Of a stretch of DNA of 33,425 nucleotides, positions 33 to 28,402 are shown piece by piece. The notes below the pieces were generated by a model. That model was not told the DNA's origin, made no database searches, and saw nothing but the letters and a program-made list of their open reading frames with translations. A program made the position numbers and the translations under genes. The first letter of the stretch is position 1; each line of letters starts with the position of its first letter. The stretch comes from an uncultured Bacteroidales bacterium (GTDB lineage: Bacteria > Bacteroidota > Bacteroidia > Bacteroidales > Bacteroidaceae). The stretch spans positions 1 to 33,425 of the forward strand of contig CACYQI010000048.1 in the NCBI GenBank assembly GCA_902776455.1. The letters are read 5' to 3'.

Positions 33-93
33 CTCCTGTACTCCTATACTCCTTAGGCATCAAAAACTTTAAGGAGCCAAGGAGTAAAAGGAG
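33..93. repeat. Inverted pair of 8-bp tandem arrays (CTCC / GGAG hairpin)
   Basis: Three 8-bp units beginning CTCC (33-56) are followed by a 12-nt spacer and three units ending in GGAG (69-93). The second set is the inverted counterpart of the first, so the segment can fold as a hairpin. The same design recurs at 8400-8675, 9091-9160 and 12155-12250. No gene is visible here. Confidence 0.75.
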
Positions 94-159
94 GGAAGCA
101 GGGCCTTCTCCATGTACTCCATGTGCTCCTTGGAAATAAAAACTCTAAGGAAGAAAAAA

Positions 160-365
160 AGCCCCCTCCCAGCTTCCCCCTTTGGGGGAGGGGCTTGGAA
201 GTTAGCTTGAAGTCTGCCAACGACTCCACTAAGAAAGGCTCTGCTACCCCACCCCCAACCCCTCCACAGCCTCCTCTAAATCTCCCCCTAAAGGGAGAAA
301 CTTCAGACTCCCTCTAACTCCCCCCCATAAAGGGGGAGGACACCCTTCCCTTTAGGGGCGACTGG
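160..365. repeat. C-rich/G-rich intergenic palindromes (CCCCCTCC family)
   Basis: Several short palindromes of the form CCCCCTTTGGGGG and CCCCCCATAAAGGGGG occur here. Related blocks are at 1015-1135, 8679-8755, 9287-9345 and 12253-12325. These look like interspersed non-coding repeats; short ORFs across them are low-complexity (Pro/Leu/Gly) and not credible. Confidence 0.6.
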
Positions 366-522
366 GGTCTTTAGAGCAATGACTGAATGTCATTGCGGCC
401 CCACAAAGGGGAGCGAATTTTTCCGTAGAAATAAAACTCTAAGGAGTCAAGGAGTAAAAGGAGGACTATATAATAATAATAATGTTACGCGCACGCGCGT
501 ACACAAGGTTTTTTCCCGAGAA

Positions 523-640
523 AATCTGCCAATCTGCCACAGAGGGGCCTTATCACGTTGAAGCACAAACGGATATGCGTGTGGCAGATTTGTGGCAGAT
601 TGTAGAAAATGTGGCAGATTGTGGCAGATTGTGGCGATTC
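523..640. repeat. Inverted short tandem arrays (AATCTGCC / GTGGCAGATT)
   Basis: Two tandem copies of AATCTGCC (523-538) are followed, after about 40 nt, by four copies of GTGGCAGATT (581-590, 592-601, 611-620, 621-630) and a degenerate fifth. The second arm is the inverse complement of the first. This is the same array-spacer-inverted array design seen before several genes, but here no gene follows closely. Confidence 0.75.
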
Positions 641-685
641 TGTTTGGGCGCAGGTACACTTTCCTTCCAGCATCATCCAACTCTT

Positions 686-865
686 CACGTTAAGTTAGTC
701 AACTTCACACGTTAAGTTAGTCAACTTCACACGTTAAGTTAATCAACTTTACACGTTAAAAAACACAGCACGCAGTATCGGCCCACACTCCACGTTGCAT
801 CGGCCTACACTCCACGTTGCATCGGCCCACACTCCACGGAGCATCGGCCCACGCTCCACGTTGTG
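686..865. repeat. 22-bp periodic repeat arrays anchored on CACGTT
   Basis: Two adjacent arrays have an exact 22-bp period. In the first, CACG recurs at 686, 708, 730 and 752, with a body resembling AAGTTAGTCAACTT. In the second, a unit beginning TCGGCC starts at 778, 800, 822 and 844 and contains CCACGTTG or CCACGGAG. Both share the CACGTT core, and related units occur at 24702-24817 and inverted at 6128-6172. Spacers are not unique and repeats are not constant, so this is not CRISPR. Confidence 0.8.
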
Positions 866-1014
866 TTTTGTACAGACCTTGGGGATGGTTGTCACAGAAC
901 CCTAAGATGCCTACCAACGCCGGACATCATCTATGTTAAATGTTTATGTGTATGTATGTACCTCTCTCAAATACACTCTCTCCTCTATGTAGAGTGGTTT
1001 CTGTGTGAGGTTGA

Positions 1015-1135
1015 TACCCCACCACTAACCCCTCCCCTTAGAAGGGAGGGGAACCGCGGCGGAGGAGCCTCTCCTCAACCCTATCCCCTCTATGGGGGAA
1101 GGGCTTTTCTCCCCATAGAGGGGGAGTTAGAGGGG
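1015..1135. repeat. C/G-rich palindromic intergenic repeat
   Basis: The segment holds CCCCTCCCC..GGGGAGG and CCCCATAGAGGGGG-type palindromes of the same family as 160-365. It lies upstream of the promoter at 1233 and contains no convincing gene. Confidence 0.5.
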
Positions 1136-1232
1136 GCTTTTGTGTCTTCTTCGGCAGGGGAAATTTAGGGGTATTGTTGCGGATTACCAATTTATTTTAT
1201 ATATAAGCATAAGAGTTTTTGAGGGAAAAATG

Positions 1233-1262
1233 TTTGGCTTTTGAAAAAAAAGCGTAACTTTG
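1233..1262 (+). promoter_or_regulatory. Bacteroidetes-type promoter
   Basis: A TTTG (-33) at 1233-1236 is separated by 18 bp from TAACTTTG (-7) at 1255-1262, matching the Bacteroidetes primary sigma factor consensus. It lies 27 bp before the start at 1289. Confidence 0.75.
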
Positions 1263-1288
1263 CGAAAAAATAGATAGGAAACAAAGCT

Positions 1289-1636
1289 ATGCGAAACATC
1301 AGGTTAATCATCATTACAGCAGGGAGCGTATTCGTTCTCTCGTGCATCGGACTTGCTGTGGGCGTTATCTCCGACATGAGATGGTTGCAGGGCTTGAGCA
1401 TCTTGGCGGCAACTGTTGCTATCTTCGTCTTGCCTGTGAGCATCATCGTAGCCTTATGCATGCGCAAGTTCCTGACAGGTCTGTTGGGCCTTGGCCTTCT
1501 GGCATTAGACCTGACTGTTGGCTTCTTCACCATGATACTCATCGGTGCTGGTCAGCACCATCCGCCTACGAATCACGACGACATAATAGATGGGGATACC
1601 GTCGAATGGGTCGAGGACTCCACAATAGTCGCTTAG
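1289..1636 (+). CDS. Small hypothetical membrane protein (115 aa)
   Basis: The gene encodes a 115-residue protein with three likely membrane segments (about residues 5-25, 35-58 and 63-88) and a short acidic, hydrophilic C-terminus containing an HHPP stretch and several Asp. The start follows directly on a good promoter (1233-1262). It is monocistronic: the next gene downstream is on the other strand. I do not recognise a family and assign no function beyond an inner-membrane location. The promoter, good codon structure and coherent hydrophobic pattern support it as a real gene; the overlapping ORFs in other frames do not have these. Confidence 0.75.
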   Translation: MRNIRLIIITAGSVFVLSCIGLAVGVISDMRWLQGLSILAATVAIFVLPVSIIVALCMRKFLTGLLGLGLLALDLTVGFFTMILIGAGQHHPPTNHDDIIDGDTVEWVEDSTIVA

Positions 1637-1732
1637 ATGTTCTGCCGCTTTGTTGCGGAGGAAAGTTAGTTTGCCGGTCTTGTTCTAAACGGCAGACGTG
1701 TGTTCCCATACGACTAAACAAGGAAGAAAACA

Positions 1733-1768
1733 AGAAGGCATGTCAGCTTTTATGCTAGCATGCCTTCT
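1733..1768 (-). terminator. Rho-independent terminator for the 50-aa gene
   Basis: Inverted arms AGAAGGCATG (1733-1742) and CATGCCTTCT (1759-1768) form a 10-bp stem with extra inner pairing. Read on the minus strand the stem is followed by a T-rich tract. It sits about 20 nt after the stop of the 50-aa gene. Confidence 0.7.
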
Positions 1769-1787
1769 GCTTGTATGGAGCCGGAAC

Positions 1788-1940
1788 TTATTCTTCGTTC
1801 CAGATGTTCCAGTCGTCGTCCTCTTTGGTGAGGGCTTGACTGCCGTCAACGGTAGTGTTGCTGAGCTTCAGGCTCTCGGCCAGCATCTGAGCTGCCTGAG
1901 CCTCTTCTACCTGCAGGGCAGGACAAATATACTTCTTCAT
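1788..1940 (-). CDS. Small 50-aa protein coupled to the upstream secreted protein gene
   Basis: A 50-residue protein beginning MKKYICPALQVEE and ending in an acidic, Trp-containing tail (DDDWNIWNEE). Its ATG lies 1 nt after the stop of the 1189-aa gene (1942-5511), so the pair is probably translationally coupled, and a terminator follows at 1733-1768. The pattern of a basic MKKYI-P start, a Leu/Ala-Ser middle and an acidic Trp tail resembles short uncharacterised proteins I recall from Bacteroidales genomes; this is memory, not a search. There is no signal peptide or membrane segment. It could be a small partner, an immunity or regulatory peptide, or a peptide precursor; the sequence alone does not decide. 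It is easily missed by annotation because of its length. Confidence 0.75.
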   Translation of the reverse strand: MKKYICPALQVEEAQAAQMLAESLKLSNTTVDGSQALTKEDDDWNIWNEE

Positions 1941-1941
1941 A

Positions 1942-4900
1942 TTACTTGAGAACTTTTTTACCGTTAATAATGTTGATGCCCTTCTGCATCTTGCTTACAC
2001 GCTGGCCTGCGAGGTTGTAAATAGATTGACCATTGACCATTGACCATTGATCATTAACCTCATTGATGCCTGTTGCGTCGTCGCCGCTGAAGAAGAAGGC
2101 CTTCACGCTGCTTGCGCTCTGGAAGTAAGCCTTGCCTGCGGGGATGGTGCCTTCAGCCTTGTAGAAGCCGATGCCTTCAGAACCGTTGGCGAGGATGTAC
2201 ATCGTGCCGTCGGCTGCGATATCTGCGTCAGCTCCCTTGAGGTCGTTGGCAATGTTGATGGCAGGCAGGTCATTAGCAAACTTGTTGTAATAGGTGCCCT
2301 TCAGGACTACGGGAGTGCTTTCGGGAACATTCTCAATTTGAACGAGGTCGAGGTATTCGCCGTCGAATTGTGCCACGTAAGCCTCTACGTTGCCATTGAG
2401 CAAGTAGCCTGTTGTGGTGTCGTAAAGAGTTGCATAACCTGCATCACCTACATAGCTAACCTTTGTTTCGTTAAGAGGAGTGGGATATGCATCTGTACCG
2501 AGGAGCTGCCCCCAACCTACGGTGTAGGCAAGCTTACCGTTAGCGATGTCATCTTTTGTTAGACCGCTGTCGAGACCATAGTTGGTTTCGAGGCTGCTGT
2601 CGAAGTCTGTATCGGAAAGGTCGATGATGTTGGTGTGTGTGCCAGCGATGCGACCGATGTTGCCGCCATTGTGGCCGTTGATAGTGCCGAGGTTCACGAA
2701 GTTCTCGATGACGCTTTCGCCGTTGCCGCCAAGGTAGCAGCAAAGAGCACCAGCATAGGGAGCCGCGTTCTTAGCTGTGATGGTGCCTGTGTTCAGCACG
2801 TTCTTGATGAGCCACTTAGGACCATTGCCTTCCTGACCGCCGATGATGCCGGCTGCATCCTGATGCTCGGCGATTACAGTAGCTTCGTTGATGATGTTTT
2901 CCAGAGTGATGAGAGCGCCGTTGTTCTGGCAGCTACCCGTGATGCCGCCCACGCGGTTATAGCCGTGGATGGTGCAAGTCTTGTCGATGATGAGGTTCTT
3001 GACAGTCGTGTTGACTGCATTGCCGCGCAGGAAGCCGAAGAAGCCGATGTTGCTGTCAGTAGGACGATTGATAATCATGTTCTTTATGCGGAAGCCCTGG
3101 CCGTCGAAAGTGCCGTTGTACTTCTTTCCTGTTGTCTGACCGATAGGCTTGTGGAGGTTCTCGATGCTGAGCATGTCGATGTCGTTCATCAGCTTGCCGT
3201 TAATCTGGAGGTTAGCGTCGCCACCCTCGTCAACCTTGTTGCTGAACCATTCGAGGTTGCCGGCGTTCTTGATTTCGTAGTAGCCATCGACAAGGGCAGG
3301 AGCCTGGAACTGCGTGTAGCAGACGTCGCACATGCCAATCTCGTCGTTAATGTTGTGGGGAAGCACGATGGTCTCGCCGCTTGTATTATTATAGGTAATG
3401 CCACCTACTGCTGCACCTAAGCAGTTTACAGTACCTGCCTGATAAACCTGGCTGTGAGAAGCGTTGCGATAAACGGGCATCTCGTCTGTGCCGAGGTTCT
3501 GAGTGTAAACGATTTCAGACTGGTCGCCGTTCAGGAGGTAGCAAAGCTCACCGCTTGCGATGGGGTCTGCTGTGTTGAGGACAGCAACCTTGCCCTGATT
3601 ACCGGCATTCGTTGTGCAGAGGTCAACGATGTTGCGGGGAACGATGTTAGTGTTGCGACGGATGAGGTTGTAGCCATTGCCGTCAACGCCAGTTACTTCA
3701 CCAATGTTCCAGCAGCCTTCAACGTCAACTTCGCCATCGACATTGCGCTGACCGGTCCATGCGCAGATGGCAGCACTTTCGCCACCCTGACCTACGATTT
3801 TACCCTTGTTCCAAAGGTTGTAGAGCTTCAGGCCTACGTTAGTAGCTTCTACACAACCGAGAATACCTGCTACGTTCTTGCCCGTAGATGATACGTTTGC
3901 CTCGTTACCGCAGTTGCGGATGATGATATTCGACTGTTCGTTGTTGCGGCTGTTGATGTGAGCCACAACGCCTGCTGCAAAGTTGTTATCATGCTGAATG
4001 GAACAGGTTGCATCAATGATGAGGTTCTCAATAATAACCTCATTGGTAACGATGTTATCAACAGATGTGCCACCGCCACGGACAGAGCCGAAGAAGCCGT
4101 TGCCGTCGTAGCCGCGGTTCTCAAGTCTGCTGGCAGGTGTCAGCACCATGCCCTTGATGCGATGACCCTGACCGTCGAAGTGACCGAAGTACTTCTTGGC
4201 ACTTGTTCCGATGGGCATGTGAGCATCAGGCACACCTTGGTAGTCAATGTCGGCAGTCAGTTTGGCATTCATTGCGCCGTAACCGGCTCTAACCATTGCA
4301 GAGAACCATTCAACCTGAGCAGGTGTGCCAAGATAGAAGAAACCGTCGGCTTCTGCACTCATCCAGTCAACCTTGGGAGCAGAGCAGACTGTGCAAAGGC
4401 CTGTTGTTGTGTCGTAGTTGTGATCATCCTGAGAGCCGCCATCGGTGTTGCTGTATGTAACGCCGCCTTTGGGATTGCCAGCACAGTCGAGGTCTGCAAC
4501 CTGATATACAGTGGGACCGGGGATTGGAAGAGGAATAGAGTTAGGATCAGAAAGGTCCTGAGTGAAAGGATGAGCATTGGGATTGGCATTGGGAGCCAAA
4601 TCGGAACGCAAAGCCGTATTCAGCAGATAGCATATCTCACCGCTATGCAGAGGATTGTTTGTAGTATAGGTGGGGTGCTCACCTTGGAAATTACTTGCAC
4701 TATGGAAAGTGTCGTAGCAGTTGGCAATAGAACGGTTGGCGCCGCGGAAAAGCTGGTTGCCGCCATCGAGGACGCTAATTTCAGCAATGTTGAGGCAGTT
4801 CCACATCTTGGCATTGCCACCAGCAGACTTGTTCCATCCGCAGAAAGCAGAACCTCTATTGACAGCGTCAATGCGACCTGCATTCACACAGTTCTCCATA

Positions 4901-5511
4901 TCGAAGTAGGGATACTGCTCGCAGCCAGCGCCAATCATGCCTGCTGCACCCGAGGTTGTGGTAAGTGTTGCATAGCTGACACAGTTGAGAATCTCAAGTC
5001 CATCGCTTGCGCCAGTATTGGTCTGGATAAGGCCGACGATAGAGCCGATGCGATTCTTACCTTTGATGGAGCATGTGGAATCCATGATGATGTTCTTGAT
5101 TTTGGCATTGCCACGGCAAAAGCCGAAGAGACCAAGAGTCTCGTCATCAGGGCGGTCAATCACCAGATTGCTGATGGTGTGGAACTGTCCGTCGAATTTG
5201 CCAGAGAACTTGTAGGTGTCGATGACAGCGCCACTCTCGTTTGTGTAACGACCAATTGGACTGTGGTCGATGCCAGTCAGGTCGATGTCGGCAGTCAAAA
5301 CAGCTTGAGCATTAAGCTTAGCTTCTTTGTCTGGATCATCATTACCAGTTACAGAGTTTACGTACCCGGCAAACCATTCAAGTTCGGAGGCAGTGCCAAT
5401 CTGATAGACACCGTCTGCATCTTTTGCAGGCTCGTCCCATGCTTGGGCGGAGCCGCCTGCGAGCCATGCTGCTGCGAGCAGGGCTACGCTGAAAAGTTTT
5501 GTTCTTTTCAT
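1942..5511 (-). CDS. Large secreted GLUG/beta-helix-like repeat protein with C-terminal sorting tail (1189 aa)
   Basis: An exported, probably surface-displayed or secreted protein. The ATG at 5511 is preferred over an in-frame TTG three codons earlier because it gives a clean signal peptide (MKRTKLF.. to AQA|W, about residues 1-24). Three homologous modules of roughly 360 residues begin near residues 45, 394 and 755. Each starts with an 'LEWF' motif followed by 'L..DID' and 'F.G.FDGQ.H.I' and a series of short beta-helix-like turns typical of GLUG-type repeats. Modules 1 and 2 end in a C-x-x-C element (LCTVC, MCDVC) after an H-N or H-I-N segment. A beta-sandwich-like domain follows (about 1000-1140), and the tail 'YNLAGQRV..KGINIINGKKVLK' resembles Prevotella-type sorting domains associated with type IX secretion. 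Ligand unknown. A -7 box lies upstream at 5589, and the 50-aa gene is coupled downstream. Confidence 0.85.
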   Translation of the reverse strand: MKRTKLFSVALLAAAWLAGGSAQAWDEPAKDADGVYQIGTASELEWFAGYVNSVTGNDDPDKEAKLNAQAVLTADIDLTGIDHSPIGRYTNESGAVIDTYKFSGKFDGQFHTISNLVIDRPDDETLGLFGFCRGNAKIKNIIMDSTCSIKGKNRIGSIVGLIQTNTGASDGLEILNCVSYATLTTTSGAAGMIGAGCEQYPYFDMENCVNAGRIDAVNRGSAFCGWNKSAGGNAKMWNCLNIAEISVLDGGNQLFRGANRSIANCYDTFHSASNFQGEHPTYTTNNPLHSGEICYLLNTALRSDLAPNANPNAHPFTQDLSDPNSIPLPIPGPTVYQVADLDCAGNPKGGVTYSNTDGGSQDDHNYDTTTGLCTVCSAPKVDWMSAEADGFFYLGTPAQVEWFSAMVRAGYGAMNAKLTADIDYQGVPDAHMPIGTSAKKYFGHFDGQGHRIKGMVLTPASRLENRGYDGNGFFGSVRGGGTSVDNIVTNEVIIENLIIDATCSIQHDNNFAAGVVAHINSRNNEQSNIIIRNCGNEANVSSTGKNVAGILGCVEATNVGLKLYNLWNKGKIVGQGGESAAICAWTGQRNVDGEVDVEGCWNIGEVTGVDGNGYNLIRRNTNIVPRNIVDLCTTNAGNQGKVAVLNTADPIASGELCYLLNGDQSEIVYTQNLGTDEMPVYRNASHSQVYQAGTVNCLGAAVGGITYNNTSGETIVLPHNINDEIGMCDVCYTQFQAPALVDGYYEIKNAGNLEWFSNKVDEGGDANLQINGKLMNDIDMLSIENLHKPIGQTTGKKYNGTFDGQGFRIKNMIINRPTDSNIGFFGFLRGNAVNTTVKNLIIDKTCTIHGYNRVGGITGSCQNNGALITLENIINEATVIAEHQDAAGIIGGQEGNGPKWLIKNVLNTGTITAKNAAPYAGALCCYLGGNGESVIENFVNLGTINGHNGGNIGRIAGTHTNIIDLSDTDFDSSLETNYGLDSGLTKDDIANGKLAYTVGWGQLLGTDAYPTPLNETKVSYVGDAGYATLYDTTTGYLLNGNVEAYVAQFDGEYLDLVQIENVPESTPVVLKGTYYNKFANDLPAINIANDLKGADADIAADGTMYILANGSEGIGFYKAEGTIPAGKAYFQSASSVKAFFFSGDDATGINEVNDQWSMVNGQSIYNLAGQRVSKMQKGINIINGKKVLK
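2025..2059. repeat. In-gene 7-bp tandem repeat at the sorting-tail linker
   Basis: Three perfect copies of ATTGACC (2025-2045) followed by two degenerate copies (to 2059) lie inside the 1189-aa gene. They encode the linker 'NDQWSMVNGQS' directly before the C-terminal sorting tail. Because 7 is not a multiple of 3, loss or gain of a unit would shift the frame and remove the tail. Confidence 0.85.
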
Positions 5512-5588
5512 GTAAAACAAATTAAAGTTAATAATTATAAAGGTTTAATTCAAATGTCAATAAAGTATATCATATCTCCAATCGCGTG

Positions 5589-5596
5589 CAAAGTTA
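5589..5596 (-). promoter_or_regulatory. -7 promoter element for the GLUG-like protein gene
   Basis: CAAAGTTA on the plus strand reads TAACTTTG on the minus strand, about 78 bp upstream of the ATG at 5511. I could not find a convincing -33 TTTG at the usual spacing, so only the -7 box is called. Confidence 0.5.
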
Positions 5597-6481: not shown

Positions 6482-6593
6482 AGAGAAAAGTGAATAGTGA
6501 ACAGTTAAAAGCTGTAGCAAATTCATGGATGCTCAAGCACCATGGCGCGATTGGACTCGCGGAACTTCATTCTTCACTCTTAATTCTTTATTA
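6482..6593. repeat. Inverted heptamer arrays in the leader of the RQC/HTH gene
   Basis: Four heptamers (AGAGAAA, then AGTGAAT, then two further variants; 6482-6509) are followed by a 56-nt spacer and four heptamers of inverse sequence (TTCATTC, then TTCACTC, and two more; 6566-6593). The second array ends 6 nt before the ATG at 6600. Confidence 0.75.
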
Positions 6594-6599: not shown

Positions 6600-7337
6600 A
6601 TGGAAGCTAAAGAACCAATAGTCAAGCTCATTAAGGCACTGGTGGAGGTCAACATGCCTGCTCAGCGCCAGCTGCTCATCGATTTCCTCATGGGCAGAAA
6701 GAGTCGGCAAATTGAAGAATACGACTTATTCGACAAAGAAAACTACGGCATAGGCGAACTGAACGACGAGGACTTCTGGTCCACCGTCATCGATGCCGCC
6801 TACGAGGGCGGTCTGCTCAAGCAGATGGTGACAAAGAAGAATGCGCTCCTGCCCACAGCCGCTGGCAAGAAGTTCGCCAGAAAACCCCATTCGTTCATCA
6901 TTCCCGACGACGAGTCAATAGCGGAAACCGCTTCCGACGTGTCGGAGATTGACTCGCTTCTGGAACAGGCTCAGAACGACAAGGCGATGGCCGAACATAG
7001 CGTCTCGCCCCTCGCCAAGCAGCAGATCAAGCTCATCACGGCAATCGACCGCCACATCGCCCTCGATGCCTTCGCCGAAAGCGAGGGACTGGCGCTCGAC
7101 GAGGTGCTCGACGAACTCGAGATGCTCGCCGAGCAGAACCGGCACCTCGACATCACCTACTTCACCGACGAGGTGCTCGGCGACGACTGCATGAACGAAC
7201 TCCTCGGCTACTTCCAGCAGGCAAAGTCCGACGACATGGAGTCCGCCCTGAAGGAATACGGCGACACCTACCAGGAGGAAGAGCTTCGACTGGCTCGCAT
7301 CGTGTTCCGCATGAATCAAATTAAAACTGGAGGTTAG
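6600..7337 (+). CDS. Orphan RecQ C-terminal-like protein (RQC winged helix + HTH), no helicase domain
   Basis: A 245-aa protein that resembles the C-terminal third of Bacteroidetes RecQ helicases without the helicase. Residues about 8-95 look like an RQC winged-helix domain ('VIDAAYEGGLL', then 'LLPTAAGKKFA'). Residues about 130-240 resemble the RecQ-associated helix-turn-helix and terminal region ('LDEVLDELEML..ITYFTDEVL..YFQQAK..EEELRLARI'). In RecQ these parts bind DNA; here there are no Walker A or DEAH motifs and no helicase remnant upstream. The ATG at 6600 is chosen over the in-frame ATG at 6525, which would add 25 residues encoded by the repeat leader. It has its own promoter (6431-6461), so it appears to be expressed as a stand-alone gene. 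Its stop codon lies inside the next heptamer array. The role is inferred to be DNA binding; a decayed recQ is the alternative. Confidence 0.75.
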   Translation: MEAKEPIVKLIKALVEVNMPAQRQLLIDFLMGRKSRQIEEYDLFDKENYGIGELNDEDFWSTVIDAAYEGGLLKQMVTKKNALLPTAAGKKFARKPHSFIIPDDESIAETASDVSEIDSLLEQAQNDKAMAEHSVSPLAKQQIKLITAIDRHIALDAFAESEGLALDEVLDELEMLAEQNRHLDITYFTDEVLGDDCMNELLGYFQQAKSDDMESALKEYGDTYQEEELRLARIVFRMNQIKTGG

Positions 7338-7431
7338 AGGTTAGGGGTAAGAGGTTAGAGAATACATCTGGCTCCTACTCAGCTGCCCAAACATTCCTCT
7401 TACCTCTTACCTCTCACCACTAACCTCTCAA
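7331..7431. repeat. Inverted heptamer arrays between the RQC/HTH gene and manA
   Basis: Four heptamers of the AGGTTAG type (7331-7358) and, after a 38-nt spacer, five heptamers of the inverse CTCTTAC type (7397-7431). The first unit contains the TAG stop codon of the upstream gene. The second array ends 14 nt before the manA ATG. Confidence 0.85.
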
Positions 7432-7445
7432 CAAAATAGAAAGTT

Positions 7446-8384: not shown

Positions 8385-8675
8385 GAGCCAAGGAGTTTTC
8401 CATATACTCCGTAGAAATGAAACTCTACAGAGCCAAGGAGTCAAAGGAGTCTTTCTCCATGTACTCCATATACTCCGTAGAAACATAAACTCTACGGAGC
8501 CAAGGAGCCAAAGGAGTCTTTCTCCATGTACTCCATATACCTTTCTCCATGTACTCCATATACTCCGTAGAAACATAAACTCTACGGAGCCAAGGAGCCA
8601 AAGGAGTCTTTCTCCATGTACTCCATATACTCCGTAGAATCATAAACTCTACGGAGCCAAGGAGCCAAAGGAGGA
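8385..8675. repeat. 66-bp hairpin unit in tandem (CTCCGTAGA ... TCTACGGAG)
   Basis: Four CTCCGTAG copies lie at 8407, 8473, 8563 and 8629. Spacings are 66, 90 and 66 bp; the 90-bp interval contains an extra 24-bp partial copy. Each unit is three 9-bp repeats starting CTCC, a short loop, then inverse units ending GGAG. Copies also occur at 33-93, 9091-9160, 9256-9284 and 12155-12250. No gene is visible. Confidence 0.85.
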
Positions 8676-8774: not shown

Positions 8775-8995
8775 AAATAAGTCCCGAAGGGACGAGAGAC
8801 CACAGACGGGGGCGTAAGCCCCCGGTAGTAGTGCGACAACCAAAGAAGCCCCGAAGGGGCGACAGAGACCTTAGCATGTTGTTATTAAACACGTTATATG
8901 TTCTGTCGCCCCCTCGGGGCTTAGTTTTGTTAATGCGCTTGTCCCGGGGGCTTGCGCCCCCGTCTGTGGTCTTTCGCGCCCTCGGCGCTTTTTTG
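8775..8995. repeat. Long nested palindrome of REP-like hairpins
   Basis: The left half (about 8778-8870) and right half (about 8900-8992) are inverted copies. GACCACAGACGGGGGCG near 8799 pairs with CGCCCCCGTCTGTGGTC near 8956, and AGCCCCGAAGGGGCGACAGA near 8848 pairs with its inverse near 8902. Each arm also contains small perfect hairpins such as GGGGGCGTAAGCCCCC. The element looks like a non-autonomous REP/BIME-type repeat; no transposase is seen in the window. Confidence 0.7.
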
Positions 8996-9064: not shown

Positions 9065-9090
9065 TACTTAGACAAAAGCACACACAAACT

Positions 9091-13291: not shown

Positions 13292-13486
13292 ATCAATTCA
13301 CTTTATCAATTCACTTTATCAATTCACTTTATCAATTCATAATTCACAATTCATAATTCATAATTAAGGCTACGCCCTAAGTCCTGTAAAGTCGTAATTA
13401 AGGCTACGCCCTAAGTCCTGCGAAGGAGATAATTATGAATTATGAATTAAGAATTATGAATTAATAAAATGAATTATGAATTAAAT
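13291..13486. repeat. 13-bp, heptamer and 26-bp repeats forming inverted arrays before menA
   Basis: Three copies of TATCAATTCACTT (13291-13329) lead into heptamers AATTCAT, AATTCAC, AATTCAT, and so on (13334-13368). A 26-bp unit containing GGCTACGCCCTAAGTCCTG then occurs twice (13361-13386 and 13395-13420). Inverse heptamers of the ATTATGA type fill 13432-13486 and end directly at the menA start. The layout is array, spacer, inverted array, start codon. Confidence 0.85.
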
Positions 13487-15064: not shown

Positions 15065-15250
15065 GAAAGTTGAAAGTTGAAAAGGGAAAGTTGAAAGTTG
15101 AAAGTTGAAAACGGAAAGTTGAAAGTGGAAAAGTGGAAACAATAAAATTGTAAATTGTCAAATTACTAAATAGTACATAAATCGTAAATTGTAAATCGTC
15201 AAATTACTAAATAGTACATAAATCGTAAATTGTAAATCGTCAAATCGTAA
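15065..15250. repeat. Heptamer array plus 41-bp direct repeats upstream of serS
   Basis: About ten units of GAAAGTT or close variants fill 15065-15135. They are followed by a 41-bp unit starting AAATTGTAAAT, with copies at 15145, 15186 and a partial copy at 15227. The 41-bp unit itself is built largely of 7-bp subunits (AAATTGT, CAAATTA, CTAAATA). No inverted arm is present here. The repeats end about 10 bp before the serS ATG. Confidence 0.9.
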
Positions 15251-15260
15251 AATATATAAG

Positions 15261-18044: not shown

Positions 18045-20420
18045 ATGTACAAAATCGTAAAGAAAGTTCAGTTCAGCGAGAAGGTATTCCGTCTGGACGT
18101 TGAAGCTCCGCTGATTGCTAAGGCTCGCAAGGCTGGTCATTTCGTTATCATCCGCGTGGATGAGAAGGGCGAACGCGTGCCCTTGACTATTGCCGGCAGC
18201 GACAAAGAGAAAGGGACCATTACCCTTGTCATTCAGACAGTTGGTGCCAGCACCAGTCAGCTCTGCGCCCTTGGCGAAGGAGACTATATAGCAGACGTGG
18301 TCGGCCCTCTGGGTCGCGCCACACACATCGAGAACTACGGCACCGTGCTTTGTGCCGGTGGTGGCGTCGGTACGGCTCCCATGCTGCCCATCATACAGGC
18401 GCTGAAGGCCGCAGGCAACCGCGTGATTAGCGTGATAGCAGGTCGTAGCAAGGACCTCATCATATTGGAGGACGAGGTACGTGCCTCAAGCGACGAGGTC
18501 ATCATTATGACCGACGACGGTTCCTACGGCAAACAAGGCGTCGTGACCGTCGGCATGGAGGAAGTCATCCAGCGCGAGAAGGTCGATAAGTGCTTTGCCA
18601 TCGGCCCTGCCATCATGATGAAGTTCTGCTGCTTGCTGACAAAGAAGTACGATATTCCGACTGATGTCAGCCTCAACACCATCATGGTGGATGGCACAGG
18701 CATGTGCGGTGCTTGTCGTGTAAGTGTTGGTGGCAAGACGAAGTTCGTCTGCGTGGACGGTCCCGAGTTCGACGGTCATCAGGTCGATTTCAACGAGATG
18801 ATGCAACGCGGCGGCGCGTTCAAGGCTGAGGAGGCAGAGGCCATGGCAGCCTATCAGGCTGCATTAGAGGGGCAAGGAGCAAGGAGCAAGGAGCAAGAGA
18901 AATGTTCCAAGACCTGTGCTCAAAACGCTCAAGTTAGTGCCAACAACATGGACACAACTACGTCTCTCTCTGAACTTACAGACAGAAGTGCCCCTTGGCG
19001 CGAGGAACTTCGCAAGTCGATGAAGGCCAAGGAGCGCACAGGCATCGAGCGTCAGAAGATGCCTGAGCTTGATCCTGTCTATCGTGCTACGACGAGAACC
19101 GAAGAGGTGAACCAAGGCTTGACCGTAGAGCAGGCTCTGACGGAAGCAAAGCGTTGCCTCGACTGCGCTAACCCGACCTGCATGCAAGGCTGTCCCGTGG
19201 GCATCAACATCCCGTCGTTCATCAAGAACATCGAGCGCGGCAAGTTCCTCGAAGCTGCCCGCGTGCTGAAGATGACCTCGGCTCTGCCTGCCGTTTGCGG
19301 TCGTGTCTGCCCGCAGGAGAAACAATGTGAAGCACAATGTATCCACTTGAAGATGAACGAGCCTGCTGTCGCCATCGGCAACTTGGAACGCTTCGCAGCC
19401 GACTACGAGCGTGAGAGCGGCAACATGTCGCTGCCCGAAGTGGCCGAGAAGAACGGCAAGAAGATAGCAGTCATCGGCTCTGGTCCTTCCGGACTGAGCT
19501 TCGCTGGCGACATGGCAAAGGCCGGCTACGACGTGACTGTCTTTGAGGCTCTGCACGAAATCGGCGGCGTGCTGAAGTACGGCATACCCGAATTCCGTCT
19601 GCCCAACGCGATTGTCGATGTCGAGATACAGAACCTGGAGAAGATTGGCGTGAAGTTCGTCAAGGACTGCGTCGTAGGTAAGACCATCACGATTGCCGAG
19701 CTTGAGAAGGAAGACTACAAGGGCATCTTCGTGGGAAGCGGCGCTGGTCTGCCCAACTTCATGGGCATTCCGGGCGAGAACTCCAACGGCATCATGTCGA
19801 GCAACGAGTACCTGACGCGCATCAACCTCATGGATGCCAGCAACCCGGAGTATGCTACGCCCATCAAGAAAGCGAAGAGCGTGATGGTAGTGGGTGGCGG
19901 CAATACCGCTATGGACAGCTGCCGCACGGCCAAGCGCCTGGGTGCCGAGCGTGTGTTCATCGCTTATCGTAGGAGCGAGGCTGAGATGCCTGCCCGACTC
20001 GAAGAGGTGAAGCACGCTAAGGAGGAGGGCATCGAGTTCCTCACCCTTCACAACCCCATCGAATATCATGCAGATGAGAAGGGAAATGTCTGCGAAGTAG
20101 TGCTCCAGAAGATGGAGCTTGGCGAACCCGATGCCAGCGGACGTCGCTCGCCCCAGCCCATTCCCGGAGCCACCGAGACCATCGCCATCGACCAGGCCAT
20201 CGTGGCCGTCGGCGTCAGCCCCAACCCCATCGTGCCCACTTCGATAGAGGGCCTGGAGCTGGGTCGCAAGAACACCATCGTCGTGAACGAAGGCATGCAG
20301 ACCAACATCCCGACCATCTTTGCCGGAGGCGACATCGTGCGCGGCGGCGCAACGGTCATCTTGGCTATGGGCGACGGACGCCGAGCAGCAGCAGCTATGC
20401 ACGAGTATCTGTCGAAGTAG
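18045..20420 (+). CDS. Fused NfnA-NfnB-like NADH-dependent ferredoxin:NADP oxidoreductase
   Basis: A 791-residue fusion. Residues 1-260 resemble NfnA (ferredoxin-NADP reductase/dihydroorotate dehydrogenase electron-transfer type): FAD part 'RVPLTIAG', NAD part 'GGGVGTAPMLPI', and a [2Fe-2S] cluster with Cys221, Cys224 and Cys236. After a repeat-encoded linker (about 275-310), residues 310-791 resemble NfnB/small glutamate synthase. They have two sets of 4Fe-4S cysteines ('CLDCANPTCMQGCP', 'CGRVCPQEKQCEAQC'), an FAD motif 'GSGPSGLSFAG' and an NADPH motif 'GGGNTAMDSC'. Separate NfnA and NfnB proteins balance NADH, NADPH and ferredoxin by electron bifurcation. In Bacteroidales databases such fusions are commonly labelled 'bifunctional DHOD B NAD-binding subunit/NADPH-dependent glutamate synthase'. 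A promoter lies at 17971. The cytosolic redox role is inferred from the family. Confidence 0.9.
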   Translation: MYKIVKKVQFSEKVFRLDVEAPLIAKARKAGHFVIIRVDEKGERVPLTIAGSDKEKGTITLVIQTVGASTSQLCALGEGDYIADVVGPLGRATHIENYGTVLCAGGGVGTAPMLPIIQALKAAGNRVISVIAGRSKDLIILEDEVRASSDEVIIMTDDGSYGKQGVVTVGMEEVIQREKVDKCFAIGPAIMMKFCCLLTKKYDIPTDVSLNTIMVDGTGMCGACRVSVGGKTKFVCVDGPEFDGHQVDFNEMMQRGGAFKAEEAEAMAAYQAALEGQGARSKEQEKCSKTCAQNAQVSANNMDTTTSLSELTDRSAPWREELRKSMKAKERTGIERQKMPELDPVYRATTRTEEVNQGLTVEQALTEAKRCLDCANPTCMQGCPVGINIPSFIKNIERGKFLEAARVLKMTSALPAVCGRVCPQEKQCEAQCIHLKMNEPAVAIGNLERFAADYERESGNMSLPEVAEKNGKKIAVIGSGPSGLSFAGDMAKAGYDVTVFEALHEIGGVLKYGIPEFRLPNAIVDVEIQNLEKIGVKFVKDCVVGKTITIAELEKEDYKGIFVGSGAGLPNFMGIPGENSNGIMSSNEYLTRINLMDASNPEYATPIKKAKSVMVVGGGNTAMDSCRTAKRLGAERVFIAYRRSEAEMPARLEEVKHAKEEGIEFLTLHNPIEYHADEKGNVCEVVLQKMELGEPDASGRRSPQPIPGATETIAIDQAIVAVGVSPNPIVPTSIEGLELGRKNTIVVNEGMQTNIPTIFAGGDIVRGGATVILAMGDGRRAAAAMHEYLSK
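18872..18899. repeat. In-gene heptamer repeat at the NfnA-NfnB junction
   Basis: Three perfect GCAAGGA units (18872-18892) and one degenerate unit encode 'QGARSKEQEK' in the linker between the two halves of the fusion. A change of one unit would shift the frame between the domains. The second half has its own Met at 18950 (MDTTTS), where the ancestral NfnB could have started. Confidence 0.85.
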
Positions 20421-22238: not shown

Positions 22239-22249
22239 TACCACTTGAC

Positions 22250-23131: not shown

Positions 23132-23139
23132 TCAAGGTA

Positions 23140-23442: not shown

Positions 23443-23444
23443 CG

Positions 23445-24482: not shown

Positions 24483-24501
24483 GAAGTGAAATTTCAAAAA
24501 C

Positions 24502-24617
24502 AGCCTACATGCCTACATAAAATGCGTCGCAAGCCCGATGAATAAAGAGAATCTCGCAAATGCGCCAATCCCTTTTGTAGAGCGGCTTTCGGAAGAATTC
24601 ATGTAGGCATGTAGGCT
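24502..24617. repeat. Perfect 17-bp inverted arrays (CCTACATG) after the aldolase gene
   Basis: AGCCTACATGCCTACAT (24502-24518) and its exact inverse complement (24601-24617), spaced by 82 nt. Each arm is two copies of an 8-bp unit. It has the design of array, spacer, inverted array. Confidence 0.9.
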
Positions 24618-24658
24618 TGTTCGTAAAATTCACAAGAGAAGTTTATCCTTTTCACACA

Positions 24659-24690
24659 CTTTTCACCTTTTCAACTTTTCACCTTTTCAA
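24659..24690. repeat. 8-bp direct tandem array (CTTTTCAC/CTTTTCAA)
   Basis: Four units of 8 bp alternating CTTTTCAC and CTTTTCAA. No inverse arm is seen nearby. It lies in a gene-free stretch just before the 22-bp repeats. Confidence 0.8.
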
Positions 24691-24701
24691 CTTTGATTGC
24701 T

Positions 24702-24817
24702 CCACGGAGCATCGGCTCACACTCCACGTTGAATTCGCCAACTATCCACGTTGTATTCGCCAACTATCCACGTGAAGTCGGCCGTTCATCCGCGTGTAGT
24801 TCCCATCTGCTTCACGT
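24702..24817. repeat. Degenerate 22-bp periodic repeat anchored on CCACGT
   Basis: CCACG or a one-base variant recurs at 24702, 24724, 24746, 24768, 24790 and 24812, exactly 22 bp apart. The following 14-16 bp vary, often around TTCGCCAACTAT or ATCGGC. It belongs to the same family as 686-865. Confidence 0.85.
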
Positions 24818-24900
24818 TACAAAGCTTACGAAAAATCCCGAATTACGCAAGTAAATCGGCAATTATTTACACTCGAAAAGGGAGGTTTTGTCGAATGAGA

Positions 24901-25150
24901 GAAAGCAGGAAAGCAGGAAAGTAGGAAAGTAGGAAAGTAGGAAAGCCGACATTAAGGTGTTTCGGTGGTGCTGAGAAACGCGGAAAGTGGACTTTTCTTA
25001 GTAAAAGTTTATTATTATTATATTAATAAATAATTATATAAATATATACGGTATATATTACCTATATTATATATCCTTAATTATACCTGCTTTGCGGGTT
25101 CAAAATGTATTAATGTCTACTTTCCTACTTTCTTACTTTCTTCACTTTTC
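24901..25150. repeat. Inverted 8-bp arrays upstream of the restriction-modification gene
   Basis: Six units of GAAAGCAG or GAAAGTAG (24901-24948) and, after a 168-nt very A+T-rich spacer, three inverse units CTACTTTC, CTACTTTC, TTACTTTC (25117-25140) and a partial one. The stretch ends about 70 bp before the gene start, just ahead of its promoter. Confidence 0.9.
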
Positions 25151-25163
25151 TGCTGGAAGATGC

Positions 25164-25192
25164 TTGCAATTGAAAAATAAGTCGTAACTTTA
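25164..25192 (+). promoter_or_regulatory. Promoter of the restriction-modification gene
   Basis: TTG at 25164-25166, 18 bp, then TAACTTTA at 25185-25192 (one mismatch to TAnnTTTG). It lies 26 bp before the start. Confidence 0.6.
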
Positions 25193-25217
25193 CACCCGAA
25201 AACAATTAATCCGCTTT

Positions 25218-28200
25218 ATGCTATTCCAGAAGAACATCCTCAGAAAATACCTTGCCCTGCTGCCTGCCGAACAGATGGCCGAGGCGTGGAGCACGTTCCA
25301 GAGCTATTTCCTCAATGCCGCCATACAGCAGAACATCCTCCAGTCGAAGGAGGAGCAGTTCCAGGAAGGTTTCCTGCGCGAACTCTTCGTCAAGGTGCTT
25401 GGCTACACGCTCAATCCCTCGCCCAATTTCAACCTCATCACCGAGCAGAAGAACGAGACGAACTCCAAGAAAGCCGATGGCGCCATCCTGATTGAAGAAA
25501 AGGTTGTGGGCATCATCGAGCTGAAAGACCACAAGACGCCCGACCTCTCGAAGGTCGAGACGCAAGCCTTCGGCTACAAGAACCAGCATCCCGATGCCCG
25601 ACTTGTCGTCATTTCCAACTTCGAGAAGTTGCGACTCTACATCGACAATACGGTGGAGCATATCGAATGGAACCTCTTCACCCTCACAGAGCAAGACTTC
25701 CGCGAACTCTACCTCTGCCTCGCTTTCGAGCAGGTAAAGCAGGAAACAGCCCTGAAGATGAAGCAGGAGTCCGTCTCCAGCGAAGACCAAATCACGAAGG
25801 CCCTCTACAAGGACTACTCCCAATTCAAGCGCGTGCTCTTTGCCGACATCGTGAAGAACAACCCCGACTACGACCAGCTTCTGCTCTTCAAGAAGACACA
25901 AAAGCTGCTCGACCGCCTGCTCTTTATCTTCTTTGCCGAAGACTGCGCACTTTTGCCCCCAAACTCCATGATGCAAATCATCGACCAATGGGAGAAACTC
26001 TCGGAACTGGATGCCTACGTCCCCTTCTACGAGCGCATCAAGAAGTATTTCGGCTATATGAACACAGGCTTCCAAGGCAAGAAGTACGAAATCTTCGCCT
26101 ACAACGGAGGTCTGTTCAAACCTGATGAGGTGCTCGACAACATCACAATCTCCGATGCTGTGCTTGTGGAACACACCAAGCGCCTCTCGGAATACGACTT
26201 CGAGAGCGAAGTGGATGTGAACATTTTGGGCCACATCTTCGAGAACTCCCTCAGCGAGATTGAAGAAATGACAAGGCAGATAAATGGTACGCAAGATGGT
26301 ACGCAGGCGTCTCGCCTGCGGGAAAGCAGCCAGCCGACAGCCGCGGGCGAGACGCCCGCGTACCTTTCCAAGCGCAAGCAGGACGGCGTCTTCTATACGC
26401 CCCAATACATTACTAAATATATAGTTGAAAATACCGTAGGCCGTCTCTGCACGAAAAAGAAGCAAGAGCTGGGCATCGACGAGGCAGAGTACTTTGCCGA
26501 CGCTCACCGACAGAAGCAAACCAAGATTCGCCTGCTCGACAAGTTGACGCAATATCGCGACTGGCTCAAGCAAATCACGATTCTCGACCCCGCTTGCGGT
26601 TCGGGTGCCTTCCTGAATGCAGCACTTCGTTTCCTGATAGACGAGCACCACAAAATCGACGTAATGGAAGCCAAAGTGACAGAATCCACAATCGTCTATC
26701 CCGATATAGACAAAGAGATACTGGAGCACAACCTTTTTGGCGTTGACATCAACGAAGAGAGCGTAGAGATAGCGCAACTTGCTTTGTGGCTTCGTACTGC
26801 CCAGCCCCGCCGCAAGCTCAACACCCTTAACGAGAACATCAAGTGTGGCAACTCGCTCATCAGCGACCCAGCCATTGCCGGCGACAAAGCATTCGACTGG
26901 CAGAAAGAGTTCCCGCAAGTCTTCGAAAAGGGAGGATTTGATGTAGTTATAGGCAATCCGCCGTATGTGAGGGCAGATAGTCCAGGCAACTCTTTAGACT
27001 TTCGCAATTATATGACATCGTGCGGCAAATGGGAAACGCTTGCAGGCAAATGGGATTTATATATACCATTCCTCGAATTGTCAATCAAGTTGTCGAAGCC
27101 CAATGGCCTTTGCTCATTCATTATTCCTGATGCTTATTGTCATGCAGAATATGGGAAACAAAGCTTGGAATACATGAAGAGTCACCGCTATTTGTCGATG
27201 ATTGACTATTTCCCAGATATTGATGTGTTCGAAGGTGTAGGCGTAAAAAGTGTTATCGTAGGATTTGATAAGAAAGGAGCAAGCATCTTTACCCAAAGAG
27301 TCCATAACGCCAATCATCAATATGTAGAGAAGAATCAAGATAGTTATCCCGATAATCTGAGAATTGATGCTAAGCAAAGAGTTCTCGAAGGGAAGAATGA
27401 CATGATTCCTTTAGGAAACGTTTGCTATATTACTAAAGGTATTGTAGGCAATAGTGATGAAAAGCAATATAAAGGCGAATTTCTTGTAGGGGACTTACTC
27501 TCTGACATAAGGGATGAAAAGCATCCCAAACTATATTATGAAGGGAAAGATATAAGTAGTTGGCGACTACAAAGAGGTCGTTACATAGAATATGGAACAG
27601 AACGTTCGCCAAGCAAATGGAGTAGAAAAGGCTTCACAGAAATGTTCGAGGGTTCACAAAAGTTAGTAACGATGCGAAGTCCTGGCACTTTTCCTCGCAC
27701 ATTCCTCGACACAGAAAATGGGTACTTCAATGAAAGTGCAATTGGCTTTAAGCGTTGGATAGACCTAAAGGGCGTAAATAATAATAGTATATCAAAGTCA
27801 TATAATGATGAGGTAGAAAGAACGTCGTTTGAAGAAATATCTACAAACTATTCCTATAAGGCTTTGCTCGCCTTCTTCAATTCCTCACTTATACGCTATG
27901 AACTTAATACTGAGCGCCGTAGTAACATTCATATCTATCCAGACGATTGGAAGCGTCTTGTGCTACCTAAAGTGACGATAGGACAATTAGCTCCTCTTGA
28001 AGCCCTTGCCGACAAGATGCTCTCCCTTAACAAGGATTTGCAGGAGAAGCGCTCTCGTTTCCTGCGTCGTTTGGGTGAAAACATAGAGGGCGTGAAGATA
28101 ACAACTGCCCTGCAAACCTTCGACGAGCTGGACTTTGCAGGCTTCGTGGCAGAGCTGAAGAAACAGAAGATAAAGCTCTCACTCTCCCAGCAGGACGAAT

Positions 28201-28343
28201 GGGAGCCATACTTCAACGACTACAACACAGCCTGCAACACGCTGAAAGAGCAAATCAGCGAGACAGATAAAGAGATAGACTCCCGCGTCTTCGACCTCTA
28301 CGGCCTCACCCCAGAAGAACGACAGACTGTACTTAACACATAA
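25218..28343 (+). CDS. Type IIG (Eco57I-like) restriction-modification protein
   Basis: A 1041-residue single-chain restriction endonuclease and N6-adenine methyltransferase. The N-terminal nuclease has a PD-(D/E)xK core: Asp87 in 'KKADGAIL' and Glu101-Lys103 in 'GIIELKD'. The methyltransferase starts near residue 384 ('DGVFYTPQYITKYIVENTVG'), with SAM motif I 'LDPACGSGAFLNAAL' (from residue 456) and catalytic 'GNPPYV' (N580-Y583). The C-terminal third holds the target-recognition domain and a coiled segment. No separate methylase, specificity or nuclease gene is adjacent, as expected for type IIG. A palindromic repeat is inserted in frame at residues about 355-383. DNA from about 26935 to 27950 is distinctly A+T-richer than the rest, consistent with exchange of the recognition domain. 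The target site cannot be read from sequence. Confidence 0.92.
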   Translation: MLFQKNILRKYLALLPAEQMAEAWSTFQSYFLNAAIQQNILQSKEEQFQEGFLRELFVKVLGYTLNPSPNFNLITEQKNETNSKKADGAILIEEKVVGIIELKDHKTPDLSKVETQAFGYKNQHPDARLVVISNFEKLRLYIDNTVEHIEWNLFTLTEQDFRELYLCLAFEQVKQETALKMKQESVSSEDQITKALYKDYSQFKRVLFADIVKNNPDYDQLLLFKKTQKLLDRLLFIFFAEDCALLPPNSMMQIIDQWEKLSELDAYVPFYERIKKYFGYMNTGFQGKKYEIFAYNGGLFKPDEVLDNITISDAVLVEHTKRLSEYDFESEVDVNILGHIFENSLSEIEEMTRQINGTQDGTQASRLRESSQPTAAGETPAYLSKRKQDGVFYTPQYITKYIVENTVGRLCTKKKQELGIDEAEYFADAHRQKQTKIRLLDKLTQYRDWLKQITILDPACGSGAFLNAALRFLIDEHHKIDVMEAKVTESTIVYPDIDKEILEHNLFGVDINEESVEIAQLALWLRTAQPRRKLNTLNENIKCGNSLISDPAIAGDKAFDWQKEFPQVFEKGGFDVVIGNPPYVRADSPGNSLDFRNYMTSCGKWETLAGKWDLYIPFLELSIKLSKPNGLCSFIIPDAYCHAEYGKQSLEYMKSHRYLSMIDYFPDIDVFEGVGVKSVIVGFDKKGASIFTQRVHNANHQYVEKNQDSYPDNLRIDAKQRVLEGKNDMIPLGNVCYITKGIVGNSDEKQYKGEFLVGDLLSDIRDEKHPKLYYEGKDISSWRLQRGRYIEYGTERSPSKWSRKGFTEMFEGSQKLVTMRSPGTFPRTFLDTENGYFNESAIGFKRWIDLKGVNNNSISKSYNDEVERTSFEEISTNYSYKALLAFFNSSLIRYELNTERRSNIHIYPDDWKRLVLPKVTIGQLAPLEALADKMLSLNKDLQEKRSRFLRRLGENIEGVKITTALQTFDELDFAGFVAELKKQKIKLSLSQQDEWEPYFNDYNTACNTLKEQISETDKEIDSRVFDLYGLTPEERQTVLNT
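26298..26364. repeat. REP-like palindrome inserted in frame in the restriction-modification gene
   Basis: Arms GGTACGCAGGCGTCTCGCC.. (26298-26321) and their inverse (26341-26364) match over 24 bp with two mismatches, and each arm also folds alone (GCAGGCG tct CGCCTGC). The element adds about 25 residues ('GTQASRLRESSQPTAAGE' and flanks) between the nuclease half and the methyltransferase, keeping the frame. Confidence 0.85.
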
Positions 28344-28367
28344 CATCCAAAGGCGTTACCTATACGA

Positions 28368-28402
28368 ACTAACCTCTCATTTCTCAATCTTCAATTCTCA
28401 AT
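28368..28402. repeat. Heptamer array directly upstream of mnmE
   Basis: Five heptamers: ACTAACC, TCTCATT, and then variants of TCTCAAT up to 28402, 8 nt before the mnmE ATG. Only the downstream arm is present; the gap to the previous gene is 67 bp. Confidence 0.75.

Follow-up and report, generated by a model that had tools for sequence, protein, structure and literature searches.

What are the short tandem arrays that recur along a 33,425-nt stretch of DNA from an uncultured bacterium of the Bacteroidaceae (Bacteroidales)? The stretch, called the window here, is one whole contig (C48, CACYQI010000048.1) of a 3.39-Mb draft genome in 94 contigs (GCA_902776455.1). At several places in it a unit of 7 to 10 nt is repeated in tandem and followed, after a spacer, by an array of the inverse unit, and a reading made from the sequence alone had attributed this design to a local process that copies and inverts a short unit. 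The array blocks are dispersed palindromic elements rather than local accidents. Probably, they belong to a set of mobile, selfish hairpin elements that share one architecture and occur in a short form and in a long form bearing a gene of family PF05635, the 23S ribosomal RNA (rRNA)-intervening sequence protein (S23/IVP), a four-helix bundle. Below, genomes are labelled G (G000 is that of the window), loci or stretches of DNA L, and element families F1 to F10.

Dispersed families with paired inverse arms

The scanner used to count the arrays accepts tandem units of period 7 to 10 with the inverse unit no more than 300 bp away and at most one mismatch between consensus units. Its counts are given for the loosest of three settings, with dinucleotide shuffles (ten for the window) as the control. 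The window contains five inverted array pairs compared with 0.00 per shuffle, and a first 400-kb sample of G000 contains 37 (0.00 when shuffled) alongside 36 direct pairs. This density refers to the first sample only, as a second G000 sample and the sample of genome G020 were picked for F1 copies. The nearest named relatives by manA neighbourhood (59 loci) are metagenome-assembled genomes (MAGs) of rumen Bacteroidaceae and Prevotellaceae, and the set of 791 kb from 46 manA loci of relatives, which leaves out L068 and L072 (half-loci of one genome), holds seven inverted pairs. The same scanner found none in 156 kb of outgroup DNA and none in a 50-kb stretch of E. coli K-12. When periods 4 to 14 were scanned, period 7 was the commonest (93 of 169 strong arrays). 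All eight loci at which the sequence-only reading had noted the design do have it, with arms of varying quality, and these counts show an excess over chance.

Family F1 illustrates the architecture best. A 361-base query around the window element at 7325-7432 gave 72 match rows genome-wide, nearly all confined to the element, and the copies have common arms and an imperfect hairpin core (AGAGGATTG...GTATTCTCT). The F1 set comprised 53 oriented copies, with eight dropped because the core edge was not recognised and three because of a 27-nt insert; the 26 copies from G000 were profiled. Conservation per 7 nt in their left arm runs at 11.8, 11.1, 9.9 and 8.2 bits and then drops to 3.1, and in the right arm at 11.4, 11.0, 11.6 and 11.3 bits and then 1.9, so that the arms end abruptly at the fourth heptamer on both sides. 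Paired arms of 7-mers likewise peak at four units (62 of 120) and those of 9-mers at three (13 of 18), with unit numbers spread more widely in unpaired arrays. The polarity of the arms is constant in F1 (24/24 pairs), F2 (11/11), F9 (14/14) and F3 (5/5), compared with 7 to 4 in F4, whose unit is almost its own inverse, and 6 to 1 in F5. Among 77 cores, significant similarity joins 161 F1 pairs, 12 F2 pairs, one pair each in F6, F9, F10 and F3, and also the ACACAAAG and ACACGAAG elements; F1 and F2 cores resemble each other weakly (four pairs), and no significant pair was found among the F4 or F5 cores. Arms and cores appear to be partly modular, because 49 nt of the core at 6482-6593 recur at L014:18211 and L011:15017, both with other arms. 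The two F1 arms of one element are no more complementary to each other (0.783) than arms swapped between copies (0.794; 53 elements, p = 0.95), which argues that they were not copied from each other.

Several variants of this layout occur. Five F1 copies (L114:16605, L123:5661, L127:9581, L127:9181 and L152:8618) carry a 27-nt segment, CTTCGCTTCGCTCAGGCGCAGGCGGAA, where arm and core meet; G020 lacks it at the site orthologous to L123:5661. At L013:15685-15836 an F6 element, arms and core, is nested between F2 arms. Two long-range F1 arm pairs were considered as parent elements and rejected: the pair in L115 encloses a weak sigma-70-like match, a Na/Pi-cotransporter and an unknown open reading frame (ORF), and the pair in L127 only a 102-aa ORF without a family.

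Several families of this design exist within one rumen Bacteroidaceae genus, whose genomes are mostly incomplete drafts. With both orientations counted, F1 match rows number 41 in G000, 56 in G020 and 10 in G013; F1 matches occur in 7 of 41 genomes and none in the other 34. Of the remaining four of the seven, G021 and G014 show F1-like elements by eye, and G010 and G017 show arrays. The GGTTAG arrays of G017 match F1 at arm length only, so it may be that arms can survive or disperse on their own. A 22-nt F3 pattern, matched exactly, was found in 21 of 81 same-genus genomes, with up to 34 matches, and in none of 118 genomes from other genera of the order (G000 set aside). At orthologous sites of G000 and G020 an element can be shared, absent or replaced by one of another family, as with F6 and F1 at L027/L151 and F4 and F1 at L024/L145. 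In the rpmA-menA gap, which holds an F4 element in the window, the 15 relatives with both genes divide as follows: L032 and L048 have an F4-type element, L044 has a remnant with one arm, 11 have no element and L034 is not comparable.

Copies inside conserved genes

The sequence-only reading caught the design of the elements and overlooked both their in-frame copies in essential genes and the PF05635-bearing form. Inverted pairs and F1 profile matches, merged over an 802-kb sample, gave 92 elements, 15 of which lie entirely within ORFs. Eleven of these 15 are spread over ten ORFs that match curated families (RsmF-like, PurM, alanyl-tRNA synthetase (AlaRS), S9 peptidase, V-ATPase subunit I, RecG, xylose-isomerase-like, HDIG protein, PurL with two elements, and MetH activation domain), and the other four ORFs are unmatched. 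The conserved identity of the host genes is independent evidence that the elements reside in genes, and insert-free homologues exist for all three genes compared, AlaRS, PurL and RecG.

In AlaRS, the loop just before the FVGYD motif carries an element in 6 of 24 genomes, with none recognisable in 18. The insert is an F3 element in G000 and G005, an F2 element in G013 and a CTCCCC palindrome in G020, while G014 has a GTTGAAA-armed element and G015 a single four-unit arm whose unit differs by one base; counting these last two as one, four families are represented in this loop. The PurL gene of G000 (L126:1683-5735) has five in-frame inserts from three families. One of the five is a CTCCCC/GGGGAG palindrome that the array scanner missed. 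Site 2 of PurL holds a GAAAGTT element in G018, and site 5 holds an F4 element in G005 of identical 87-nt length. At the RecG site, 19 of 23 genomes have 18 nt and three others have 15, 51 and 57 nt, whereas G000 has 93 nt, which take the place of the native 18 nt without a visible target duplication. Such inserts can be regarded as natural replicates of selfish hairpins entering essential proteins, with five in one PurL and four families in one AlaRS loop within one genus.

As 7 shares no factor with 3, the peptide repeat encoded by a stop-free heptamer array is the same in all frames, and this may favour the survival of arms within genes. Of 42 F3 arms, 17 lie within ORFs. Fourteen of them are read as GGTCAAT, a unit that is stop-free in every frame, and the three read as ATTGACC have an open frame because each carries one altered unit (ATTTACC in PurM, ATTCATC in AlaRS and ATTCACC in PurL). 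The F2 peptide borne by RecG has 18 other places in G000 among the matches listed, nine of them in stop-free frames of at least 250 aa. The protein segments that derive from elements are probably tolerated loops.

A reading in which these segments are removed from the RNA or bypassed in translation is highly unlikely, though the hairpins predicted in coding sequence are very stable (z -10.5 for the PurL element and -7.9 for that of AlaRS, both 77-80 nt). Bypass or removal is reported for some yeast mitochondrial palindromes (PMC6649704), and rRNA intervening sequences are described as excised by RNase III (PMC4990558). However, excision without ligation would break the mRNA, the three F3 arms on the stop-bearing strand each have a changed unit, and the in-gene copies examined keep the frame, no search having been made for frame-breaking copies.

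The gene-bearing form and the origin of the elements

PF05635 genes are linked with inverted arms in Bacteroidota and Cyanobacteriota. At L124:10271-10753, inverted AGTGAAA/TTTTCAC arms enclose a PF05635 gene, and PF05635 matches occur in 23 of 26 genus genomes compared with 0 of 14 control genomes. We fetched 40 PF05635 loci, all 12 of G000 and the best of other genomes. Strict array pairs enclose the gene in 10 of the 40, as opposed to 3 of 167 control ORFs of 90-200 aa, and in nine of these ten cases about 420-590 nt, mostly 419-464 nt, separate the arms. In the examples printed, four-unit arms stand immediately around an ORF of 123-132 aa, and the PF05635 ORF is the only one present, apart from an extra overlapping 84-aa ORF in one form. 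When 130-nt flanks were aligned with a score of at least 32 (two loci were skipped for lack of a suitable ORF), inverted flanking repeats were found for 21 of 38 PF05635 genes and 5 of 169 control ORFs (Fisher 4e-14), and direct repeats for 2 of 38 and 4 of 169. The arms of the gene-bearing forms in G000 belong to families also present as short elements (F6, F2, F5-type and TTGAAAG). Two further PF05635 genes in other stretches have inverted flank scores of 66 and 46.

The association extends to plasmids. PF05635 relatives were found in 25 plasmid records, and 12 loci of our choosing were analysed with an inverted-score cut-off of 28 (ten cyanobacterial, one from Bernardetia and one from Treponema). 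Eleven of the 12 reach this score, compared with 2 of 75 control ORFs, and seven have heptamer arrays on both sides in inverse orientation, such as TAATTCG/AATTACG in Nostoc C052; the locus of the Nostoc UHCC 0870 plasmid has a non-tandem inverted repeat. All 12 copies lie between annotated protein genes and not in an rRNA gene. Within the genus, PF05635 matches number 12, 9, 8, 7, 7 and 6 in the genomes with an AlaRS insert and 0-7 in the 18 without (p = 0.0008), and the counts correlate with F3 matches (rho 0.58, p = 0.002), with kinship and completeness uncorrected.

On an Anabaena cylindrica plasmid (L292), annotated cas2 and cas1 genes flank the PF05635 gene. The legend of a CRISPR survey includes the 23S rRNA IVP among CRISPR-linked families (PMC10910872). 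Arrays around PF05635 genes may be mistaken for CRISPR-like repeats, although this is a guess.

The elements thus share one architecture, in which an arm of roughly four heptamers, or of three 9-mers, is followed by a centre and the inverse arm. The short form is a non-coding element of about 75-125 nt, either intergenic or in frame inside conserved enzymes, and the long form has the PF05635 gene as its centre and arms of the same families. We infer that the elements are mobile and selfish. The PF05635 protein would recognise the arm hairpin and help both forms to spread, with the short forms riding in trans. Entry would occur by a hairpin, single-strand or RNA-based event in which a few bases are replaced, and not by the cut-and-paste route that duplicates the target. 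At four sites (the manA region of L030, AlaRS of G012, PurL site 5 of G013 and RecG of G005) the relatives' sequence resembles the unit at the junction, which hints at microhomology with the unit.

Several results weigh against this explanation. Most arrays (634 of 804) lie outside short inverted pairs, and copies of F3, F4 and F5 have cores that for the most part cannot be aligned with one another, which leaves room for spacers of local sequence. Part of the openness of in-ORF copies follows from the ORF calls, which relied on open frames, and the AlphaFold2 model of AlaRS (21-sequence alignment) is too weak to map the insert loop, with a mean predicted local distance difference test score (pLDDT) of 68, a predicted template modelling score of 0.38 and residues 461-481 below a pLDDT of 50. 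Inverted flanks were not detected for 17 of 38 PF05635 genes, direct repeats outscore inverted ones at the Treponema and Planktothrix plasmid loci, and the Anabaena plasmid locus falls below a score of 28. Weak matches are included in the PF05635 counts, which are also affected by kinship and by how complete the MAGs are. Flank matches of 4 nt are in weak excess (18 of 42, with 11.6 +/- 2.2 expected, and no excess at 5-9 nt), which would allow a short target duplication, and no movement event was seen in these data.

The strongest competitor, which we consider unlikely, is that the elements are REPIN-like or other miniature inverted-repeat transposable elements (MITEs) that depend for their movement on an HUH or DDE transposase acting in trans, with PF05635 as mere cargo. 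Their palindromic doublets and intergenic dispersal are as in REPINs (PMC3116915), and the 4-nt flank signal would fit such a mechanism. However, the RecG site shows replacement of native sequence without visible duplication, and no ORF other than that of PF05635, apart from the one overlapping 84-aa ORF, is present in the gene-bearing examples printed. PF01797, the family of the REP-associated tyrosine transposases (RAYTs), has no match in F1-rich G020 (62% complete) and two matches just above the cut-off in G000, with the strongest in G022 and G013. A RAYT as the mobiliser is not supported, because PF01797 does not track F1, a result limited by MAG incompleteness.

Local birth, with an array arising by slippage from a native seed and then being copied in inverse orientation nearby through template switching, is improbable. 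The variable cores of F3 and F4 would suit it, as would the unit-like sequence of relatives at the four junctions listed above. The recurrence of units and of the F1, F2 and F6 cores at unrelated loci, the quantised arm lengths, the lack of matching between the arms of one F1 element and the presence of whole genes between arms all speak against it, and the copy-and-invert process that the sequence-only reading had favoured is not supported.

That reading had also suggested that foldable leaders ahead of start codons could affect expression. In the window, three arrays do stop only 0-14 nt short of an ATG. Among 77 intergenic elements, however, with simple ORF calls for this and the other placement figures, a fraction of 0.38 lies no farther than 15 nt from a gene start, compared with 0.40 under uniform placement in the same gap. 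The elements lie a median of 12 nt from a 3' end, and their nearness to gene ends is largely a consequence of their filling the gap. Regulation by arrays in 5' untranslated regions is the least probable account and very remote, since gene starts are not enriched, 20 of the 77 elements lie between convergent genes, copies occur inside coding regions and the same genes lack them in most relatives. In its favour are the strength of the hairpins predicted for window elements (z -3.1 to -7.5) and, in 15 of the 18 cases with co-directional flanking genes in the G000 sample, an F1 core strand that runs opposite to those genes.

Known systems and the elements of the window

The closest known counterpart of the gene-bearing form is the rRNA intervening sequence (IVS) of Coxiella, Leptospira and Brucella, a stem-loop in 23S or 16S rRNA that has complementary borders, replaces a small loop and encodes an S23p/IVP protein. 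The Coxiella IVS has a 428-444 nt form with an S23p ORF, is sporadic and has been called selfish (PMC4990558). The gene-bearing form encodes the same family, PF05635, while the short forms encode no protein; complementary borders are present at 21 of 38 genus genes and 11 of 12 plasmid loci, and the replacement of 18 native nt at RecG recalls that of the rRNA loop by an IVS (PMC4990558). Unlike an IVS, the elements have tandem heptamer to nonamer arms, occur in many copies and families per genome and have short forms inside protein genes. The gene-bearing form thus appears to work like an S23p-encoding IVS, but we do not class it as one because the plasmid copies lie outside rRNA. The S23/IVP proteins are described as having no known function, and the solved S23p structure is that of a Xanthomonas protein (PMC4990558).

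The short form is most like the Rickettsia palindromic elements (RPEs) and Wolbachia palindromes, hairpins of 105-150 nt with several families per genus, which also occur both between genes and in frame in conserved proteins (PMC10969869, PMC2229807). At about 100 nt, F1 is close to the RPE size of roughly 100-150 nt, and the two folded coding elements are smaller (77-80 nt). To our knowledge, RPE arms lack tandem 7-9-mers; RPEs also belong to another phylum, and the likeness is one of design, with no claim of homology. MITEs fused in frame are reported as well, among them the enterobacterial repetitive intergenic consensus (ERIC) and a 107-bp Neisseria element. REPINs are likewise dispersed, non-autonomous inverted hairpin doublets, but the arms here are tandem heptamers and no association with a RAYT (PF01797) was found. 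In Bacteroidales, the BrickBuilt MITE of Porphyromonas contains a tandem repeat (PMC4596501) and is reported as strictly intergenic, and our literature search found no report of elements such as these in the order, or of heptamer arms around S23/IVP genes.

Tandem heptamers are also a feature of the cyanobacterial short tandemly repeated repetitive (STRR) sequences. These are usually described as tandem repeats. The likeness noted by the sequence-only reading was apt, but its view that STRRs leave the inverted pairs unexplained needs revision, because Nostocales plasmids have inverted heptamer pairs and inverted pairs of the Xanthomonas heptamer GGGAATC are published (PMC4692102). The host of the window is no cyanobacterium, its nearest named relatives being the rumen Bacteroidaceae and Prevotellaceae MAGs. 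The GGGAATC arrays mostly have four units. Their inverted pairs number 70 and 75 in two genomes and as a rule directly follow the upstream ORF. The arrays were studied as G-quadruplexes, and the portion of the report that we draw on neither calls them mobile nor ties them to S23p (PMC4692102). Four-unit inverted arrays and an S23p protein in Xanthomonas may be a lead, and only that. TAACTGA repeats of Beggiatoaceae, cyanobacteria and some Bacteroidetes are heptamer arrays in direct orientation, with one inverted case (PMC4679880).

The arrays of the window have the look of arms of S23/IVP elements, kin in kind to the IVS of 23S rRNA, and so do cyanobacterial heptamer repeats in at least some cases. 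Heptamer arrays of cyanobacteria, Xanthomonas and Bacteroidota were previously without explanation, as was the function of S23/IVP proteins; the inverted arrays that closely flank S23/IVP genes in two phyla connect the two problems and point to a candidate protein. More tentatively, and with a chance somewhat short of even, there may be a cross-phylum class of mobile hairpins around the S23/IVP gene in Bacteroidota, Cyanobacteriota and perhaps Xanthomonas, with short derivatives spreading in trans, exchangeable arm units, repeated colonisation of the same enzyme loops, and the 23S rRNA IVS as its rRNA-settled branch.

The elements and arrays of the window are as follows, with z-scores referring to predicted RNA folds.

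33..93, plus strand: degenerate CTCC/GGAG hairpin of the type at 8385..8675, with one long match (L013:17471).
523..639, plus strand: inverted pair AATCTGCC / TGTGGCAGAT, with six further matches in the sample (111-117 nt, 79-86%).
2025..2059, minus strand: single F3 arm (ATTGACC), in frame (..NDQWSMVNGQS..) near the C-terminus of ORF 1942-5520.
6482..6593, plus strand: degenerate F5-type arms with a two-hairpin core (z -3.1).
7325..7432, minus strand: F1 element with GGTTAGA arms, four heptamers per side and the conserved hairpin core, between ORF 6601-7337 and manA (z -7.5 and -6.3).
8385..8675, plus strand: tandem copies of one 67/90-nt hairpin, CTCCATGTA.. / ..GGAGCCAAAGGAG, with 8-9-mers.
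13334..13486, plus strand: F4 element with AATTCAT arms between rpmA and menA, with two occurrences of its core TAATTAAGGCTACGCCCTAAGTCCTG.
15065..15251, plus strand: GAAAGTT and AAATCGT/AAATTGT arrays ahead of serS, without an inverted partner.
18868..18897, plus strand: single F2-type array (AGGAGCA), in frame (..GQGARSKEQ..) within ORF 18045-20420.
24502..24620, plus strand: F8 element, GCCTACAT, with two 8-mers per arm (z -5.1).
24901..25148, plus strand: inverted pair GAAAGTAG / CTACTTTC upstream of ORF 25218-28343; its spacer is long and AT-rich.
28375..28403, plus strand: single 7-mer array ahead of mnmE.

The first unit of the F1 element provides the stop codon of the upstream ORF 6601-7337. 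Visual inspection of the 190 nt upstream of manA found no F1 element in 47 loci of relatives, and L033 has a different element of the same design there. F8 has a single related element (L014:15604), and the pair at 24901-25148 has no second copy in the 802-kb sample. One unit of the 8385-8675 cluster has 15 further matches in that sample including its cluster neighbours, with window positions 9089 and 12184 among the matches listed. The single arrays before serS and mnmE were correctly noted in the sequence-only reading, and the spot upstream of serS shows array-like sequence by eye in 10 of 14 relatives.

Two further features are separate from these elements. An Acido-Lenti-1 RNA (RF01687) at 8780-8825 on the minus strand, scoring 42.7 bits and thus above the gathering threshold, is the sole Rfam match of the window and lies outside the elements. 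Arrays with a 22-bp unit containing CACGTT occur at 686-759, 769-861 and 24700-24800; the type at 769-861 is found at 47 other places in the 802-kb sample and constitutes a dispersed family of another kind than the heptamer-armed elements.

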